Of a stretch of 64,000 nucleotides of DNA, positions 43,786-49,483 are shown piece after piece. The stretch is from contig JAIXYN010000014.1 of assembly GCA_027490195.1 (NCBI GenBank), forward strand, positions 62,001 to 126,000, given 5' to 3'. Positions within the stretch are counted from its first letter, which is position 1; every line of letters begins with the position of its first letter. This DNA comes from Verrucomicrobiaceae bacterium (GTDB lineage Bacteria; Verrucomicrobiota; Verrucomicrobiia; Verrucomicrobiales; Verrucomicrobiaceae). A program made the position numbers and the translations under genes. Below the pieces are notes generated by a model. That model saw only the letters and a program-made list of their open reading frames with translations, searched no databases and was not told the DNA's origin.

Positions 43786-45138
43786 ATGAAAAAAGGTTCA
43801 TTCATCAACTTGCTGGGTGCTTGTGTGCTCCCGCCGCTCGTCGGCGTGGGGATATGCTGGGGCATGATCCAGCTTTTGAAGAACCACGAAATGTTTCGTG
43901 TGGATGCAGTCGCGCCTCCCATCGCCGCCGTAGGCCAGGTGCTGCAGGGCAAGCTCAACGAGAAGAGTGCTGAAATCCGTGCCGCGTTGCCAGTTGATGG
44001 GCCATTTGATCCGGTGCGTCCACTGCCAGTGCCGGTAAATGCGGAAAAAGCCGCCCTCAAACGTGCTGCTGAGGCTGCCAAGGCGAAGCCGGTCCTTCCA
44101 ATAAAGCCCTCCAGCGTTGACTCCGGGGTGGCAGCCGCTAGGAAGCCTGACAAGCCAGCCACTGTCATTGCCATCCAAGCACCTGTATGGCGTCCCATCC
44201 TTGATCCGATTGAGGACCACTGGACACGTCTGATGCCGCGCACGGCTGCGCTGCCGCAGGCTTACCAAGCTGTGCTCAACGATGATGCTGCTCATCTTGC
44301 AAAGATCATCAGGATGGGCATTTCCCCCAACGAAATGACCTTGGGCGGAGATACGCCACTCTGCGCCGCCGTGCGCATGGGACGTGCGGAATGTGTTTAC
44401 GTCTTGGCGCTTTCGGGTGTGAATCTCAATCAGCCCGCACATGAAAATCAGCCCCCGATAGCGATCGCTTCTCTGCGCCGGAATGCACCCGTGTTGCAGG
44501 CGCTGCTGGATTTTGGCGTCGATCCCAACACACGCTTCAACACGCCCATTAAGAAGCAGGTCATTGACCGCTGCAACATCAAGGATTTGCGCAACGCCAT
44601 GGAAAGTGACCGTGGGATCACGCCACTGATCTGCTGTTCTGCACGTGGGGATGTGGAAGGAGCGGTCACTCTGATGCGTGCAGGAGGCAGGCCTGGGCTG
44701 GGCACCACACGCTACCACCGTTACCCTATCAATTATGCTGCCACCCAGGGGTATCTGTTCCTCATGCGCGTCCTGCTTGGACGTGATCCTGAGTCGGAAC
44801 CGGACACCCTCGTGACCGTCGATCTCTCCAGTCAGCGTGCCTGGGTGACGAAACAGGGCCGCATGATCAACCACACCATGGTTTCTACCGGGCGTGAAGG
44901 CTACGGTACACCCGCAGGTCGTTATGTCATCACTGACAAGCACACCTCCCATATTTCCACGCTCTACCACGTCAACATGCCTTGGTTCATGCGTTTGAAC
45001 TGCGGGGCCATCGGCCTGCACAGCGGCTACGTCACGGGTCAGCCCGCGTCTCATGGCTGCATCCGTCTCCCCTACGAGAAGGCGAAGCAATTCTTCAGCC
45101 AGGTGCGCGTGGGGGACGAGGTGGAGATCGTGTATTAA
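43786..45138 (+). CDS. L,D-transpeptidase with N-terminal ankyrin-repeat region
   Basis: This is a 450-residue protein with one N-terminal membrane anchor (about residues 7-25), a Pro/Ala-rich linker, ankyrin-like repeats (about 165-325, for example GDTPLCAAVRMGRAECVYVLALSG split in two, and DRGITPLICCSARGDVEGAV), and a C-terminal YkuD domain (about 338-450). The catalytic motif is SHGCIRLP with C425, and an HSGYV histidine lies shortly before it. L,D-transpeptidases form 3-3 crosslinks or attach proteins to peptidoglycan. Ankyrin repeats joined to YkuD are unusual and may bind a protein partner. The ATG at 43786 gives the anchor. It interlocks with the stop of convergent mpl. Confidence 0.87.
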   Translation: MKKGSFINLLGACVLPPLVGVGICWGMIQLLKNHEMFRVDAVAPPIAAVGQVLQGKLNEKSAEIRAALPVDGPFDPVRPLPVPVNAEKAALKRAAEAAKAKPVLPIKPSSVDSGVAAARKPDKPATVIAIQAPVWRPILDPIEDHWTRLMPRTAALPQAYQAVLNDDAAHLAKIIRMGISPNEMTLGGDTPLCAAVRMGRAECVYVLALSGVNLNQPAHENQPPIAIASLRRNAPVLQALLDFGVDPNTRFNTPIKKQVIDRCNIKDLRNAMESDRGITPLICCSARGDVEGAVTLMRAGGRPGLGTTRYHRYPINYAATQGYLFLMRVLLGRDPESEPDTLVTVDLSSQRAWVTKQGRMINHTMVSTGREGYGTPAGRYVITDKHTSHISTLYHVNMPWFMRLNCGAIGLHSGYVTGQPASHGCIRLPYEKAKQFFSQVRVGDEVEIVY

Positions 45139-46517
45139 AGCGTTTTCAGCAGCTTGTCGTGGATGCCGTCGAATCCGCCGTTGCTGAACACCACGATCAC
45201 ATCTCCGCTGTGCGTTTCCTGCTTCAGGCGGTTGACGATGTCGTCGGTCGAGGCTTCAAACCAGCAGGGCTTGCCACGTGCTGTGACAGATTCTGCCACC
45301 TTGGCGGTGTCCAGGCGCTGATCTACAGCGACCTTCTCAGGATTGGCCACTGCTGCGATGACTGAGCCGTCGGCTTCGGTCAGAGCCTCGATCAATTCAG
45401 GCTGCAGCACGTTGCGGCGGCTGGTGTTTGAGCGGGGTTCAAAAAGCGCCCAGAGGCGGCGGCCGCTGTAGCGCTGGCGAAGGCCGCGCAATGTTTCACG
45501 AATCGCGGTCGGGTGATGACCGAAGTCGTCAATGATAGTGATGCCATGGGCGGTGCCACGCTCCTGCTGACGACGGCGAATGCCGCGGAAGCTGCTAAGG
45601 CCGGCGCGGATTTCATCGTCACTCAATCCGGCAAAGCGGGCTGCGCAGACGCACATGGCCGCATTCCGTGCATTGAACTCGCCAACCATGGGCACCTCGA
45701 ACGCAGCGCCGTTGATTTCAAACTGCGTGGTCTCGGGCGTCACGCCGGTGAGGGTGATGCGGAAATCGCACTCCGCTCCCAAGCCTACCGTTTTGAGCGG
45801 GGCAGGGCACTTGGCGCGCAGGCTGAGGCAGTTGGGGTCGTCGCCGTTGATGAGGACGAGGCCGTTGCGTGGCACCGTGTTCAGAAAGCGCTGAAAAGAG
45901 AGCAAAATTTCGTCGAGGTCACGGAAGATGTCCGCGTGATCGAACTCGATGTTGTTTACGATCGCACACTCAGGCAGGTAGTGCAGGAATTTGCTGCGCT
46001 TGTCGAAGTAGGCTGTGTCGTATTCGTCGCCTTCGATCACAAACAGGTCCGAGTGCGTGAAGCGTGCGCCGGATTCGAAATTCTCCGGCACGCCGCCGAT
46101 CATGAAGCCGGGGTTTTTGCCTGCGTGCTCGTAGATCCACGCCAGCATCGTTGTCGTCGTAGTCTTGCCATGCGTGCCGCTCACCACAAAGCTGCGTTTG
46201 CCCTGGATTACTTCGCGCTTCAGCATCTCCGCCATGGAGACGTAGGGCAGCTTTTTCTCCAGCAGTGCCTCGAGTTCGGGATTGCCGCGTGAGATCGCAT
46301 TGCCCACCACATAGGAATCCGCATTCAGAGGCAGATTCTCCGGCTTATAGCCTTCTGTGACCGTGATTCCTGCATCCCGCAGCACATCGCTCATGGGCGG
46401 ATAGACTTGATTGTCTGAGCCGCTGATGGTGTGGCCGAGGGCGCGCAGCGCGACTGCCGTCGAGCCCATTGCGGTGCCACAGATGCCGATGAAATGAATG
46501 TGCTTTGGAGATGCCAT
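45135..46517 (-). CDS. mpl: UDP-N-acetylmuramate:L-Ala-gamma-D-Glu-meso-Dap ligase (Mpl)
   Basis: This 460-residue Mur-ligase-family enzyme recycles peptidoglycan tripeptide onto UDP-MurNAc. The N-terminal motif HFIGICGTAMGSTAVALRALG (given in parts) and the ATP loop GTHGKTTTTTML (114-125) are typical of Mpl; MurC would have GTHGKTTTTS with a different N-terminus. The central domain (FESGARFTHSDLFVIEGDEYD) and C-terminal domain (IDDFGHHPTAI) are intact. The ATG at 46517 is chosen. Together with the convergent L,D-transpeptidase it makes a small cell-wall locus, but the two are on opposite strands, so there is no shared operon. Confidence 0.94.
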   Translation of the reverse strand: MASPKHIHFIGICGTAMGSTAVALRALGHTISGSDNQVYPPMSDVLRDAGITVTEGYKPENLPLNADSYVVGNAISRGNPELEALLEKKLPYVSMAEMLKREVIQGKRSFVVSGTHGKTTTTTMLAWIYEHAGKNPGFMIGGVPENFESGARFTHSDLFVIEGDEYDTAYFDKRSKFLHYLPECAIVNNIEFDHADIFRDLDEILLSFQRFLNTVPRNGLVLINGDDPNCLSLRAKCPAPLKTVGLGAECDFRITLTGVTPETTQFEINGAAFEVPMVGEFNARNAAMCVCAARFAGLSDDEIRAGLSSFRGIRRRQQERGTAHGITIIDDFGHHPTAIRETLRGLRQRYSGRRLWALFEPRSNTSRRNVLQPELIEALTEADGSVIAAVANPEKVAVDQRLDTAKVAESVTARGKPCWFEASTDDIVNRLKQETHSGDVIVVFSNGGFDGIHDKLLKTL

Positions 46518-46562
46518 GGAAAATAAGCGCACGGTTCAAATCCAGGCGCATGCTTGAACTAA

Positions 46563-46585: not shown

Positions 46586-46609
46586 AAAAGAAAGTTCAGT
46601 TCGGCGGGA

Positions 46610-46798
46610 ATAATCGCACTGGCCACACACGATCATCCTGTGCCCGATCCCGTCTGGGATCTCCAAGCCGCTGCTATCAAGACCTCCGGCAGCACCGCTA
46701 CTCTCCTCGAATGGGACGACAAAATCCCCGGCTTCGATGACGTCCAAGCCGAAGCACTCAAAGCCAACCGATTCCTTCATAAGCACACCCACGCCTAG
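46610..46798 (+). pseudogene. C-terminal remnant of an MNIO (DUF692) family enzyme
   Basis: About 60 codons ending at TAG 46798 read as the extreme C-terminus of an MNIO/DUF692 protein: THDHPVPDPVWDLQAAAIKT and TLLEWDDKIPGFDDVQAEA match the conserved THDHPVP and LIEWDxxIP motifs. The codons before THDHPV show no family similarity, and the approximately 220 N-terminal residues with the iron-binding TIM barrel are absent. MNIO enzymes modify Asp or Cys residues of RiPP precursors, such as the copper-linked bufferins. This fragment cannot be active. The breakpoint lies near 46610. Confidence 0.75.
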
Positions 46799-47102
46799 CA
46801 AGATCCGCACTCACGCCGACTTGCGCCAGCTTCAGCGTACCATGGCTGCGGCGCTCATGCAGCTGCTCACCCGCCAGGATGGCATGAAGTCCAGCACGCA
46901 GGTCGATTTCATCACGCCAAATGACCGTATGAGCGGCTTCGAACGCCTCGAAATCTACGCCCGCCAGTGCTGGTATCGTCTGATCGACTGCCTCTACGAC
47001 GAGAATGGGCGCAAACGCTCGCCATTGATGAGGCTCATAAAAAGCCGTTTCGTAGGGATGATCTTCTGTGTCGGCGAAAAAAGGTGTGAATGGTGGGAAT
47101 AA
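46737..47102 (+). pseudogene. N-terminal remnant of a DUF2063 (MNIO partner) protein
   Basis: Codons from about 46806 to 47000 give ADLRQLQRTMAAALMQLL and FERLEIYARQCWYRLIDCLYD, the start of a DUF2063 partner protein of MNIO enzymes (BufC-like). In intact relatives the sequence continues DFPGLRAVLG. Here it switches after CLYDE to unrelated sequence and stops at 47102, so the rest of the protein is missing. It directly follows and overlaps the MNIO fragment, in the gene order of bufferin operons. Its length of about 65 homologous residues versus about 250 in the family marks it as broken. Confidence 0.72.
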
Positions 47103-47147
47103 ACGCCACCGCCACGCTTCTCACCTGCATATCCGCCCCATGAATTC

Positions 47148-47747
47148 ATGGAACTCTCCCTTCATTTTGGCATTGAACTGCCCGCAACCCGTCCGATACC
47201 TCGACGCGTGACTGACTCCGTGCCCAGCTTCGAGCAGATCGTGGACGCCCATTACCAGGGCCTCTATCGCTTCGCCATGAGCATGTGCCGGCGTGAGGCC
47301 ACCGCGCAAGATCTCGTGCAGCAGACCTTCCTGCAATGGGCAAAGAAGGGGCACTCGCTGCGGGACGCCTCAAAGGTGAAGACCTGGCTGTTCACCACCA
47401 TCTATCGCGAGTGGCTCGCCATCGCGCGTCGCGAGAAAAAATACGAGGAGGTCGAATTCGAACCCGACCAGCACGGTGCCACCCAGCACCACGATGATGG
47501 CGAAAATCCCCGTGTGGACAGCGCCACTCTCCAATTCGCCCTCGAAGAACTCGAGCCGAACTACCGCGCTCCACTGGTGCTTTTTTACCTCAAAGAGCTA
47601 TCTTACCGCGACATCGCCGAGACGCTTGGGGTGCCCATCGGCACCGTGATGTCCCGCCTCTCCCGCGCCAAAGACAGCCTGCGCAATATTCTGCGCCGCT
47701 TTGAAGATTCCGCCTCATCCAACATCATCCCCCTATCCGCCTCGTGA
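47148..47747 (+). CDS. ECF-type RNA polymerase sigma factor
   Basis: This 199-residue sigma-70 family protein has a region 2 (FEQIVDAHYQGLYRFAMSMC through KVKTWLFTTIYREWL, residues about 28-90) and a region 4 helix-turn-helix (YRAPLVLFYLKELSYRDIAETLG through TVMSRLSRAK, about 140-185). No region 1.1 or 3 is present. ECF factors direct transcription of envelope-stress or detoxification genes. The stop overlaps the following anti-sigma-like gene by 4 bp. An in-frame GTG at 47208 would start directly before region 2. Just upstream, a ggtgggaataaacgcc element (47092-47107) might be its own promoter, but this is speculative. Confidence 0.92.
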   Translation: MELSLHFGIELPATRPIPRRVTDSVPSFEQIVDAHYQGLYRFAMSMCRREATAQDLVQQTFLQWAKKGHSLRDASKVKTWLFTTIYREWLAIARREKKYEEVEFEPDQHGATQHHDDGENPRVDSATLQFALEELEPNYRAPLVLFYLKELSYRDIAETLGVPIGTVMSRLSRAKDSLRNILRRFEDSASSNIIPLSAS

Positions 47748-48472
47748 CCCGCGAAGAAGCCAAACTCGAACTCGACGCCACGACGCTTCGCCCGCAGGAT
47801 GCGTCTCCAGAGGCGCGCGAGATGGCGGAGAGCGACCCCCAACTGGGTGCTTGGCTGAAACAACGCACCGCGTTTGATGAACAAGTCGCCGGGGCCTTTG
47901 CGGTATCCACTCCAGCGGGGCTCCGCGAGAGCATCCTGCAAAATGCCAGACGGCCCGCCAAGCGTTCTATCCGCTGGGTTCTGCCCACGCTGGCCGCAGC
48001 TGCGGCGGCGGTGGTTATCGGCTGGGCGATGCTCTGGCCGGTGAATACCAGCATGCCCGGCTGGCAGGCTGATTCGCTCGCCGCCGTGACAAAAGTCGAG
48101 TACGGCATGTCTATGGTCGATCACATGTCCCGTGACTTCGAAGCCATCAAAAAGATGCTAGTTGCTAATCAGTCTCCGACGCCGAATCGCCTTCCTGGCA
48201 CTGTGGGAACGATGCCAGTTCTGGCCTGCAAGCGCATCCAGATCGCAGGTCGTGCTGCATCCATCATCTGCTTTGAAATTCAGCCTGGCAAAGAGGCGCA
48301 CCTCGTTGTGATGGACAACACCGGACTCACAGACCTCCCGCCACAGCTTCAGCCCCAGTTCAAGACCAGCAAGAACTGGAACATGGCCAGTTGGAGCGAT
48401 GGCAGCCAAACCTTTCTCCTCGCCACCAAGGCGAATGAAGCCGCGTTGAAGAAGCTGTTTGGTCTGGCGTGA
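47744..48472 (+). CDS. putative membrane anti-sigma factor
   Basis: This 242-residue protein starts with a GTG whose overlap with the sigma stop (GTGA) supports coupled translation. A cytoplasmic N-terminal part of about 75 residues with an alternating charged pattern is followed by one membrane span (about 76-97) and an exported C-terminal domain of about 140 residues. The C-terminal part contains CKRIQIAGRAASIICFEI. No zinc-binding HxxxCxxC anti-sigma motif is present. The position and topology support an anti-sigma role, but sequence similarity to a family was not seen. Confidence 0.78.
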   Translation: MTREEAKLELDATTLRPQDASPEAREMAESDPQLGAWLKQRTAFDEQVAGAFAVSTPAGLRESILQNARRPAKRSIRWVLPTLAAAAAAVVIGWAMLWPVNTSMPGWQADSLAAVTKVEYGMSMVDHMSRDFEAIKKMLVANQSPTPNRLPGTVGTMPVLACKRIQIAGRAASIICFEIQPGKEAHLVVMDNTGLTDLPPQLQPQFKTSKNWNMASWSDGSQTFLLATKANEAALKKLFGLA

Positions 48473-48484
48473 GCGTCAGATCAG

Positions 48485-49483
48485 TCAACGCCCTTCAAAC
48501 CGGTCACGCCCTTTCGCCAATGCCTCGATCTTGCGGTCGGCGATGCTGCGTTTGAGCATCCAGAAGCCGCAGTCAGGGTGGATGAATTTCACCCGGCCAG
48601 TGCCAAGCTTTTTCTCCGCCGCCTCGATACGGCGGGCGATTTCGTCGGCGGTTTCGACGTGATTTACCTTGATGTCCACGACTCCCAATCCGACCCCGAT
48701 TTTAGGATCGAGCTCCCTCAGCGCATCGAGATCAGCACTTGGGCGGTGCGCGAGTTCCAGCACGAGGTGATCGGCATGCAGGGAATTCAGGAAAGTGATG
48801 AGCGTGGCCCACTCACCTTTTTGAATCGTCTGACCGCCATAGTTGCCGAAGCAGAAGTGCACGGCTTTTGTGCCTTTCACCGCATCCAGCACGCGGTTGA
48901 TGCCTGCGGCGGCGATTGGGGCATCCGCCGGATTGCCGGGAATGTTCGCTTCATCGATCTGGACGCAGTCGCATTGCAAGTCGGCGGCCTGCGCGGCCAG
49001 GGCGTCGGCGATGGCCATGTTGAGCGCTTCGAAGTCGTGGTAGTGCGTGTCAAGCAGCGTGCGGGCCAGCATGTAGGGGCTTGTCAGCGTGAACTTGAAC
49101 GGGCCTCCGGCCACTTTTCCCGCACGGGCGCAGTCCTCGGCCAGATTGAGAACGCCTTCGGTGATGGGGCCACGCACGACGGCTGCCGGCTTGCTGCGGA
49201 AGGCCATCTCATGCTTGGCGCGAAACGCGGCGGCATCTGCACGACCCACACGGCTGTCGATGCCACCGAGCTTGTGAACGAAGTACTCGATCATGCCGTT
49301 GGTGTCGGGATGATTCACATCGAAGCGGTACAGCTCGCCATCCGTCGGCAGATCAATGCCCGCCTGGCGCTGCGTGTCGAACACCACCCGCGTGGCATCA
49401 ATGACGGCGGCTTCACTGGGCAGCGCGCTGAGCCATTCGGGGACAGGATAGGAGCCGACGGTGGTGGTCTGGATGGTTGCCAT
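48485..49483 (-). CDS. MetE-like single-domain cobalamin-independent methyltransferase family protein
   Basis: This 332-residue TIM-barrel protein matches the C-terminal catalytic domain of MetE. It starts TTTVGSYPVPEWL and has the zinc-ligand regions HFCFGNYGG (about residues 209-217) and HPDCGFWML (about 300-308). The conserved ligands His, Cys and Cys are all visible. It lacks the N-terminal domain of true MetE, so it belongs to the core-MetE or MetE-like group that may use a methyl donor other than methyltetrahydrofolate polyglutamate. No methionine gene is adjacent. It is convergent with the anti-sigma gene, 12 bp apart. Confidence 0.85.
   Translation of the reverse strand: MATIQTTTVGSYPVPEWLSALPSEAAVIDATRVVFDTQRQAGIDLPTDGELYRFDVNHPDTNGMIEYFVHKLGGIDSRVGRADAAAFRAKHEMAFRSKPAAVVRGPITEGVLNLAEDCARAGKVAGGPFKFTLTSPYMLARTLLDTHYHDFEALNMAIADALAAQAADLQCDCVQIDEANIPGNPADAPIAAAGINRVLDAVKGTKAVHFCFGNYGGQTIQKGEWATLITFLNSLHADHLVLELAHRPSADLDALRELDPKIGVGLGVVDIKVNHVETADEIARRIEAAEKKLGTGRVKFIHPDCGFWMLKRSIADRKIEALAKGRDRFEGR

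Follow-up and report, generated by a model that had tools for sequence, protein, structure and literature searches.

Why would a bacterium keep a regulatory gene pair beside an operon of which only scraps are left? The question is raised by positions 46,610 to 48,472 of the window, by which we mean the whole stretch of 64,000 nucleotides that was analysed (contig JAIXYN010000014.1 of assembly GCA_027490195.1, positions 62,001 to 126,000 of the forward strand). The source genome is that of a Prosthecobacter-like member of the Verrucomicrobiaceae, 6.98 Mb in 101 contigs with 95.4% completeness. The slot has mpl on one side and a metE-like gene on the other. It contains scraps of bufABCD, an operon for a cysteine-rich peptide of a metal-binding kind (bufA, precursor; bufB, MNIO maturase; bufC, DUF2063 partner; bufD, DoxX), and after them intact genes for an extracytoplasmic function (ECF) sigma factor and an anti-sigma-like protein. 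We think, with a probability of about 0.78, that a bufferin-2-like operon has been deleted here next to an ECF pair that was retained, and that buf was a dispensable branch of an envelope redox-repair regulon, which has been outlived by its regulator.

Remnants of the operon

The sequence-only reading of this locus had proposed that the last 60 or so residues of an MNIO enzyme and the start of its DUF2063 partner survive in front of an ECF sigma factor and a coupled anti-sigma-like gene, as what is left of a deleted locus for a ribosomally synthesised and post-translationally modified peptide (RiPP) with the regulator kept, and the comparison with relatives bears it out. The bufB fragment matches PF05114 with an E value of 1.2e-12 over profile positions 208-262 of 263, and both regulatory frames are open. 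The first bufC fragment, which alone scores a Pfam E value of 0.18, is 84% identical to residues 1-75 of the DUF2063 protein of genome G011, and that intact orthologue is recognised as DUF2063 at E 2.9e-18. Beyond what had been seen before there is a frame-shifted piece of bufC (47003-47067) and the 3' end of a DoxX gene reaching to about 47089; DoxX is part of the locus.

The deletions were mapped by alignment to five congeners with intact buf genes (G001, G011, G012, G020 and G027), and because all five align collinearly with the window across the three breakpoints, chance resemblance is excluded. At the first breakpoint (D1) 1088-1095 bp (about 1.09 kb) are missing, from the bufA promoter to about codon 219 of bufB; at the second (D2) 160 bp inside bufC, with a frameshift; and at the third (D3) 857 bp that start in bufC and run to the end of bufD. 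Comparison shows three internal deletions, by which bufA and its -10 element were removed completely; most of bufB went too, bufC lost its middle and its end, and of bufD almost nothing remains. The window thus holds scraps only, not the complete maturase and precursor by which a bufferin cluster is recognised. It had also been suggested that an intact copy be sought in the rest of the genome; apart from the fragment, no second MNIO was found in a search of the 95.4%-complete assembly, and no bufferin precursor either, in a search that matches 11 of 48 genomes of the genus as a positive control.

Nonsynonymous and synonymous substitutions on the window lineage number 8 and 3 in the bufB scrap and 9 and 5 in the bufC scrap, together 17:8, against 11:30 summed over the five congeners, which is a nonsynonymous excess (Fisher p 0.002). 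The changes in the sigma and anti-sigma genes of the window lineage, 14:17, resemble those of the five buf-bearing congeners (p 0.42).

The intact operon in relatives

The sequence-only reading had advised looking upstream of the sigma gene in relatives, and ten congeners do have there, in the mpl slot, intact genes for MNIO and DUF2063 proteins and for a small cysteine-rich precursor. All ten loci (L051-L060) have the order mpl, buf, sigma, anti-sigma. The nearest relative by anti-sigma identity (92%) is G011, where mpl on the opposite strand is followed by bufA (85 aa), bufB (280 aa), bufC (290 aa), bufD (152 aa), sigma (199 aa) and anti-sigma (241 aa). Its BufB scores 346.2 bits against the bufferin-maturase model NF050167, over the cut-off of 310, and the DUF2063 and DoxX partners score 66.4 bits (PF09836) and 72.6 bits (PF07681), both over cut-off. 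The precursor has six conserved cysteines, five columns being occupied in 18/18 sequences and the sixth in 17/18. The best match of the G011 precursor is the BufA2 model NF050166 (E 3.8e-9), with 36.6 bits under a cut-off of 60, and it is because of this sub-threshold match and the six cysteines that we call the precursor bufferin-2-like. No named family was found in its Pfam scan, and its N-terminus is hydrophobic as judged by eye. The intact congener loci are, from these sequence matches, bufferin-2-like clusters.

The arrangement is not rigid. A metE-like gene lies 3' of the unit in nine of the ten loci, the copy in G020 being interrupted by a contig end, and in the stretch fetched for G047 we found none. 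The distance from bufD to sigma is about 1 kb in G016. Between the same two genes G047 has two additional ones, of which one is DUF255/thioredoxin-like and the other is a second bufA that has a motif copy of its own (L055, 6585-8800). Buf, sigma and anti-sigma also stand as a unit at other places, in G058, in G053 and in G017, a genus member in which the unit lies outside the mpl slot.

A promoter motif shared with methionine-sulfoxide repair

In most loci the start of sigma is preceded, at about 52 bases, by the sequence GGAATAA-N14/16-YTCHCA. The same motif stands some 80-120 bases ahead of bufA, and it also precedes msrB and msrPQ, which serve methionine-sulfoxide repair. With at most one mismatch it was found in 27/29 sigma upstreams, those of G051 and G047 being without it, and in 17/18 bufA upstreams (the exception is G049), and the controls gave 0/15 for metE, 0/13 for der, 0/19 for mpl and 1/15 for bufD, where the single match is exact; random stretches matched in 39 of 4000 cases, some of them covering real sites. 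The sigma count uses 29 of 36 rows, seven (G017, G058, G053, G055, G050, G048 and G018) having been omitted for a late alignment start or a contig end. The upstream region is cut in G055, and sites stand farther out in G050 (-106), G048 (-175) and G018 (-141). In operons without a site close to sigma, the sigma gene may be transcribed from the bufA promoter.

A genus-wide scan of 48 genomes for the exact pattern gave 127 matches, compared with 10 for the reversed pattern. Three of them are in the window genome: before sigma, before msrP (with an msrQ-like gene, PF01794, downstream of it), and within a coding sequence on contig C19, which we took as chance. The sigma gene has kept a promoter of the same type as that of bufA, and the window genome has lost the bufA -10 element yet keeps its sites before sigma, msrP and, with one mismatch, msrB.

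Matches to msrB were obtained in 44/48 genomes and 40 loci were fetched; 16 of their upstream regions have the motif exactly, 30 with at most one mismatch and 35 with at most two. For msrP, where 18 loci of at least 80% identity were examined and weaker paralogues as well as a broken copy in G009 were excluded, the corresponding numbers are 6, 12 and 15. Random 163-mers from the fetched loci reached two mismatches or better in 72/4000 cases. The genes downstream of exact genus-wide matches were read for 31 loci of the 127 matches, and they include msrB, msrA (PF01625 for G042) and, by eye, thioredoxin reductase-like and DsbD-like genes; several of these matches precede nothing relevant or fall within coding sequence. 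From the sites before its own gene we infer that the sigma factor reads the motif, and it would also control the msr genes.

Motif sites were also seen before DsbD-like, redoxin-like and thioredoxin reductase-like genes, named by eye, at L103 (G026), L114 (G023), L098 (G008), L102 (G015) and L120 (G038). These extra sites hint at what may be a broader envelope redox regulon.

Table 1. Features of the locus and its flanks (positions in the window)
Feature	Position	Strand	Remarks
mpl (UDP-N-acetylmuramate ligase)	45135..46532	-	TIGR01081 427.5 bits, cut-off 388.7; left flank, divergent; adjoins buf in congener loci L051-L060 (10/10)
bufA promoter remnant	46607..46623	+	GGAATAA (-35-like) present at 46607-46613; CTCACA (-10-like) removed at D1 junction 46619-46623
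bufB (MNIO) fragment	46619..46798	+	last ~60 codons and stop; PF05114; 80% identical to G011 BufB residues 220-280
bufC (DUF2063 partner) fragment 1	46779..47003	+	codons 1-75; overlap with bufB end kept as in G011; D2 at 47002/47003
bufC fragment 2	47003..47067	+	about codons 127-148; frame differs from fragment 1
bufD (DoxX) 3' end	47057..47089 (end ~47089)	+	after D3, junction within 47056-47067
ECF-type promoter of sigma gene	47096..47123	+	GGAATAA-N15-TTCTCA, intact
ECF sigma factor, 199 aa, intact	47148..47747	+	PF08281 2.2e-16, PF04542 1.8e-12; 94% identical to G011 orthologue
Anti-sigma-like protein, 242 aa, open frame	47744..48472	+	sub-threshold DUF3379; 36-sequence alignment; structure model
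metE-like gene	48485..49483	-	PF01717 3.5e-16; right flank; downstream in 9/10 of L051-L060

The anti-sigma-like protein and a possible mechanism

The sigma protein has the marks of an ECF factor: regions 2 and 4 (PF04542 and PF08281) over cut-off, a length of about 200 aa and an anti-sigma gene next to it. The anti-sigma-like protein scores 25.7 bits against DUF3379, under the cut-off of 33.2, and 20 bits against the antisigma model NF052375, under a cut-off of 100. No NrsF (DUF1109) domain was found in a Pfam scan of the window protein or its G011 orthologue, which gave the sub-threshold DUF3379 and a chance-level match only. Two cysteines, C162 and C176, are invariant across 36 orthologues. 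An AlphaFold2 model (mean predicted local distance difference test (pLDDT) 83.3, predicted template modelling score (pTM) 0.58) has N-terminal helices at 3-68, a hydrophobic helix of low pLDDT at 79-96, which we take as membrane-spanning, and a C-terminal beta domain at 159-228, in which the modelled cysteines sit on consecutive strands. The best structural matches of this domain are RseB and MucB with Z 7.0-7.6, the next entry having 5.6, and the best Foldseek E value is 0.008; the relation is suggestive only, as a Z below 8 can mean a mere common arrangement. A search of PDB sequences with the anti-sigma profile returned two designed constructs only, at E 0.28 or worse.

We hypothesize that the anti-sigma protein tethers the sigma factor to the membrane and that its two-cysteine C-terminal domain is the sensor of redox or metal stress in the envelope. 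Once released, the sigma factor would read the GGAATAA-N14/16-YTCHCA promoters, which are its own, that of bufA where it is present, and those of an exported msrB and of msrPQ. Methionine-sulfoxide repair would then stay under its control after the metallophore is lost, and the pair would remain useful, which could be why it is so often found without buf in the family. The regulator has probably been kept for its msr targets.

Distribution and loss of the operon

We compared 96 genomes, the window's included, of which 48 belong to the genus, 11 to the rest of the family and 37 to the rest of the order. An MNIO match is present in 20/96: the fragment of the window, intact genes in 11 genus members, 6/11 other family members and 2/37 other members of the order. 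The precursor occurs in 11/48 genus genomes, the same set that has an intact MNIO. The sigma factor, at 67% identity or more, is present in 32/48 genus genomes including all 11 with intact buf; six of the remaining genomes have only a paralogue of 47-53% identity and ten have no sigma match at E 1e-40. Intact MNIO is accordingly found in 11/32 sigma-bearing genomes compared with 0/16 others (p 0.009).

Twenty of the 32 sigma-bearing genus genomes have no MNIO match at all. Relatives with the pair and without MNIO genes are what the sequence-only reading had named as evidence that would tell against it, and they do occur, yet two sister comparisons point to buf deletion. G048, which represents a different genus of the same family, has in front of sigma the leader and initial codons of bufA as they stand in its sister G058, and a deletion of bufA-D explains this best. 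G018 shares its upstream flank with its sister G017 and has no buf; the comparison fits a deletion, which is probably what happened. Together they indicate putative further losses of buf with the pair kept. A weak likeness (score 20) between the sequence before sigma in G018 and the bufD end of G017 was discounted. In the G048 locus (L088, 4990-5250) the bufA promoter and leader are followed immediately by the sigma gene, so that a structural promoter has apparently been passed to the regulator.

Twenty loci without buf were fetched, 18 from those 20 genus genomes and one each from G048 and G050, which belong to other genera. Sigma lies directly beside mpl in 8/20. Nothing convincing was found in a search for scraps of buf proteins in the 2.5 kb (0.7 kb in one case) upstream of sigma in these loci, and the best matches (E 0.01 on the same strand, down to 0.0008 on the opposite one) were taken as chance; in the same search the window gave 2e-29 for its bufB scrap and 6e-39 for its bufC scrap. 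The sigma tree places the buf-bearing clade, the window included, in one group (95/84) and leaves 12/33 inner branches open. With the window counted as buf-less it requires at least five changes of buf presence, many forks being unsupported. The BufB tree has 12/15 inner branches open and is poorly resolved.

The regulator may itself be decaying in G039, where an anti-sigma fragment with an internal stop was seen (C147:55997-56260) and no sigma orthologue at threshold. G037 has a similar fragment (C113:16120-16242) alongside an open copy elsewhere.

Alternative explanations

Several results weigh against the view that the regulator was kept for its repair genes while buf was lost. No site stands just before sigma in G017, G058, G053, G051 and G047, and three or more mismatches were counted in 5/40 msrB and 3/18 msrP upstreams. 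The motif, with at most one mismatch, is kept before msrB in 5/6 fetched genus genomes without this sigma factor; not all of these assemblies are complete, but the sigma-less G039 reaches 97% completeness, so that a paralogue may share the motif. Among the six genomes that have only the 47-53% identical paralogue, the motif precedes msrB with at most two mismatches in 4/5 fetched. The ratio of 14:17 in the sigma pair is not clearly unlike that of the scraps (p 0.11), so that retention by selection is not demonstrable from the window genome alone. Moreover, G048 lies outside the genus, the direction of the change in G018 is not proven, and the large clade that has sigma beside mpl and no buf may reflect either a loss there or an acquisition of buf by its sister group, the BufB tree being poorly resolved and the sigma tree having 12/33 branches open.

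The competitor that we take most seriously, unlikely as we find it, starts from this last point: the ancestral slot would have held the sigma pair only, the window clade would have gained bufABCD and the window would now be losing it, and the buf-less mpl clade would never have had it. The single sigma-tree group of the buf-bearing clade and the window fits such a history, as do the eight loci in which sigma adjoins mpl with no convincing buf scrap; the units at other places in G017, G058 and G053 speak against it, and so do G048 and probably G018 as deletions. It is also rather unlikely that the msr promoters are those of a different ECF paralogue that shares the motif, the window sigma now controlling itself alone. 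Sigma-less genomes do keep the msrB motif, and a sigma/anti-sigma paralogue (50% and 28% identical) does lie just downstream of the same motif in G018 (C8:273094-274646). However, one sigma only passes E 1e-40 in the window genome, and the four sites, ahead of sigma, bufA, msrB and msrP, resemble one another.

If the deletions were recent, the pair could simply not have been lost yet and be drifting without targets, which we consider improbable. The scraps are still recognisable and the sigma pair differs only weakly from them in its substitutions, but the pair matches the five intact congeners in this respect, sigma persists in 20 other genus genomes without an MNIO match, and the msrP and msrB motifs are retained. 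The sigma promoter, moreover, is exact in the window and within one mismatch in 20/20 buf-less loci, four of them at -106 to -175. That the gaps are an artefact of a metagenome-assembled genome is hardly credible: related records are of this kind and the assembly is in 101 contigs, but the locus lies in a 236-kb contig with normal flanking genes, has three separate breakpoints, and its scraps show a nonsynonymous excess of their own.

Relation to known systems

A close parallel to the locus is known from Caulobacter, where, in the accessible part of the report, sigmaF has a YedY gene under its control as well as two DUF2282-MNIO-DUF2063 operons, and NrsF needs two conserved cysteines (PMC3511200). 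This co-regulation of sigma, buf and YedY lends support to our interpretation. Both systems have an ECF sigma factor with a two-cysteine anti-sigma, a membrane protein there and putatively so here, a precursor-MNIO-DUF2063(-DoxX) order, and YedY, which is of the MsrP type. Caulobacter, as far as that text goes, has a DUF2282 (bufferin 1) precursor, a six-helix NrsF/DUF1109 anti-sigma and the motif GTAACC-N16-CGAA, whereas our loci combine a bufferin-2-like precursor with an anti-sigma that resembles DUF3379 (below cut-off) and has a single hydrophobic helix; they also differ in their motif, GGAATAA-N14/16-YTCHCA, and in the additional msrB, and the operon of the window has decayed. Haemophilus influenzae RpoE2-HrsE is similar in that an ECF sigma factor stands over methionine sulfoxide reductases (MsrAB and MtsZ) and a DoxX-like gene, and differs in its 67-aa cytoplasmic anti-sigma; an adjacent MNIO operon is not mentioned in the available portion of that paper (PMC7907618).

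The intact congener loci resemble bufferin-2 clusters in their six-cysteine precursor, BufB-type MNIO, DUF2063 partner and DoxX (PMC12452194). The same survey reports sigma genes in bufferin-1 clusters and none in bufferin-2 clusters; here, unlike there, a Buf2-like cluster is joined to a sigma/anti-sigma pair. As for the anti-sigma model, its C-terminal domain is most like the C-terminal part of the periplasmic stress sensors RseB and MucB, but it is built into the anti-sigma-like protein and has an invariant cysteine pair. The name captophorins has been proposed for bufferins and their relatives, according to the accessible text (PMC12668002). The six-cysteine DUF692 clusters of an Antarctic soil study are, in the portion available, gammaproteobacterial and not verrucomicrobial (PMC8692599). 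Among the papers listed by our literature searches, with most subscription papers beyond reach, none was on a verrucomicrobial bufferin locus or on a Buf2 cluster with an ECF pair, so their absence is not proven.

Significance

A bufferin-2-like operon joined to an ECF sigma/anti-sigma pair was not seen in the published survey, and the shared promoter motif ties this operon to periplasmic methionine-sulfoxide repair. At even odds, in our judgement, the Verrucomicrobiaceae have an ECF envelope-stress regulon, distinct from those of proteobacteria in its kind of anti-sigma and its promoter motif, in which msrB and msrPQ would be the stable core and the bufferin-2-like cassette would be lost repeatedly, with an anti-sigma carrying an RseB-like domain with a cysteine pair; the window would then show such a loss part-way. 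Natural deletions of this kind split the metallophore from its regulator and offer a ready test of the purpose of that regulator, and an orphan sigma/anti-sigma pair can flag a RiPP cluster that has been lost.
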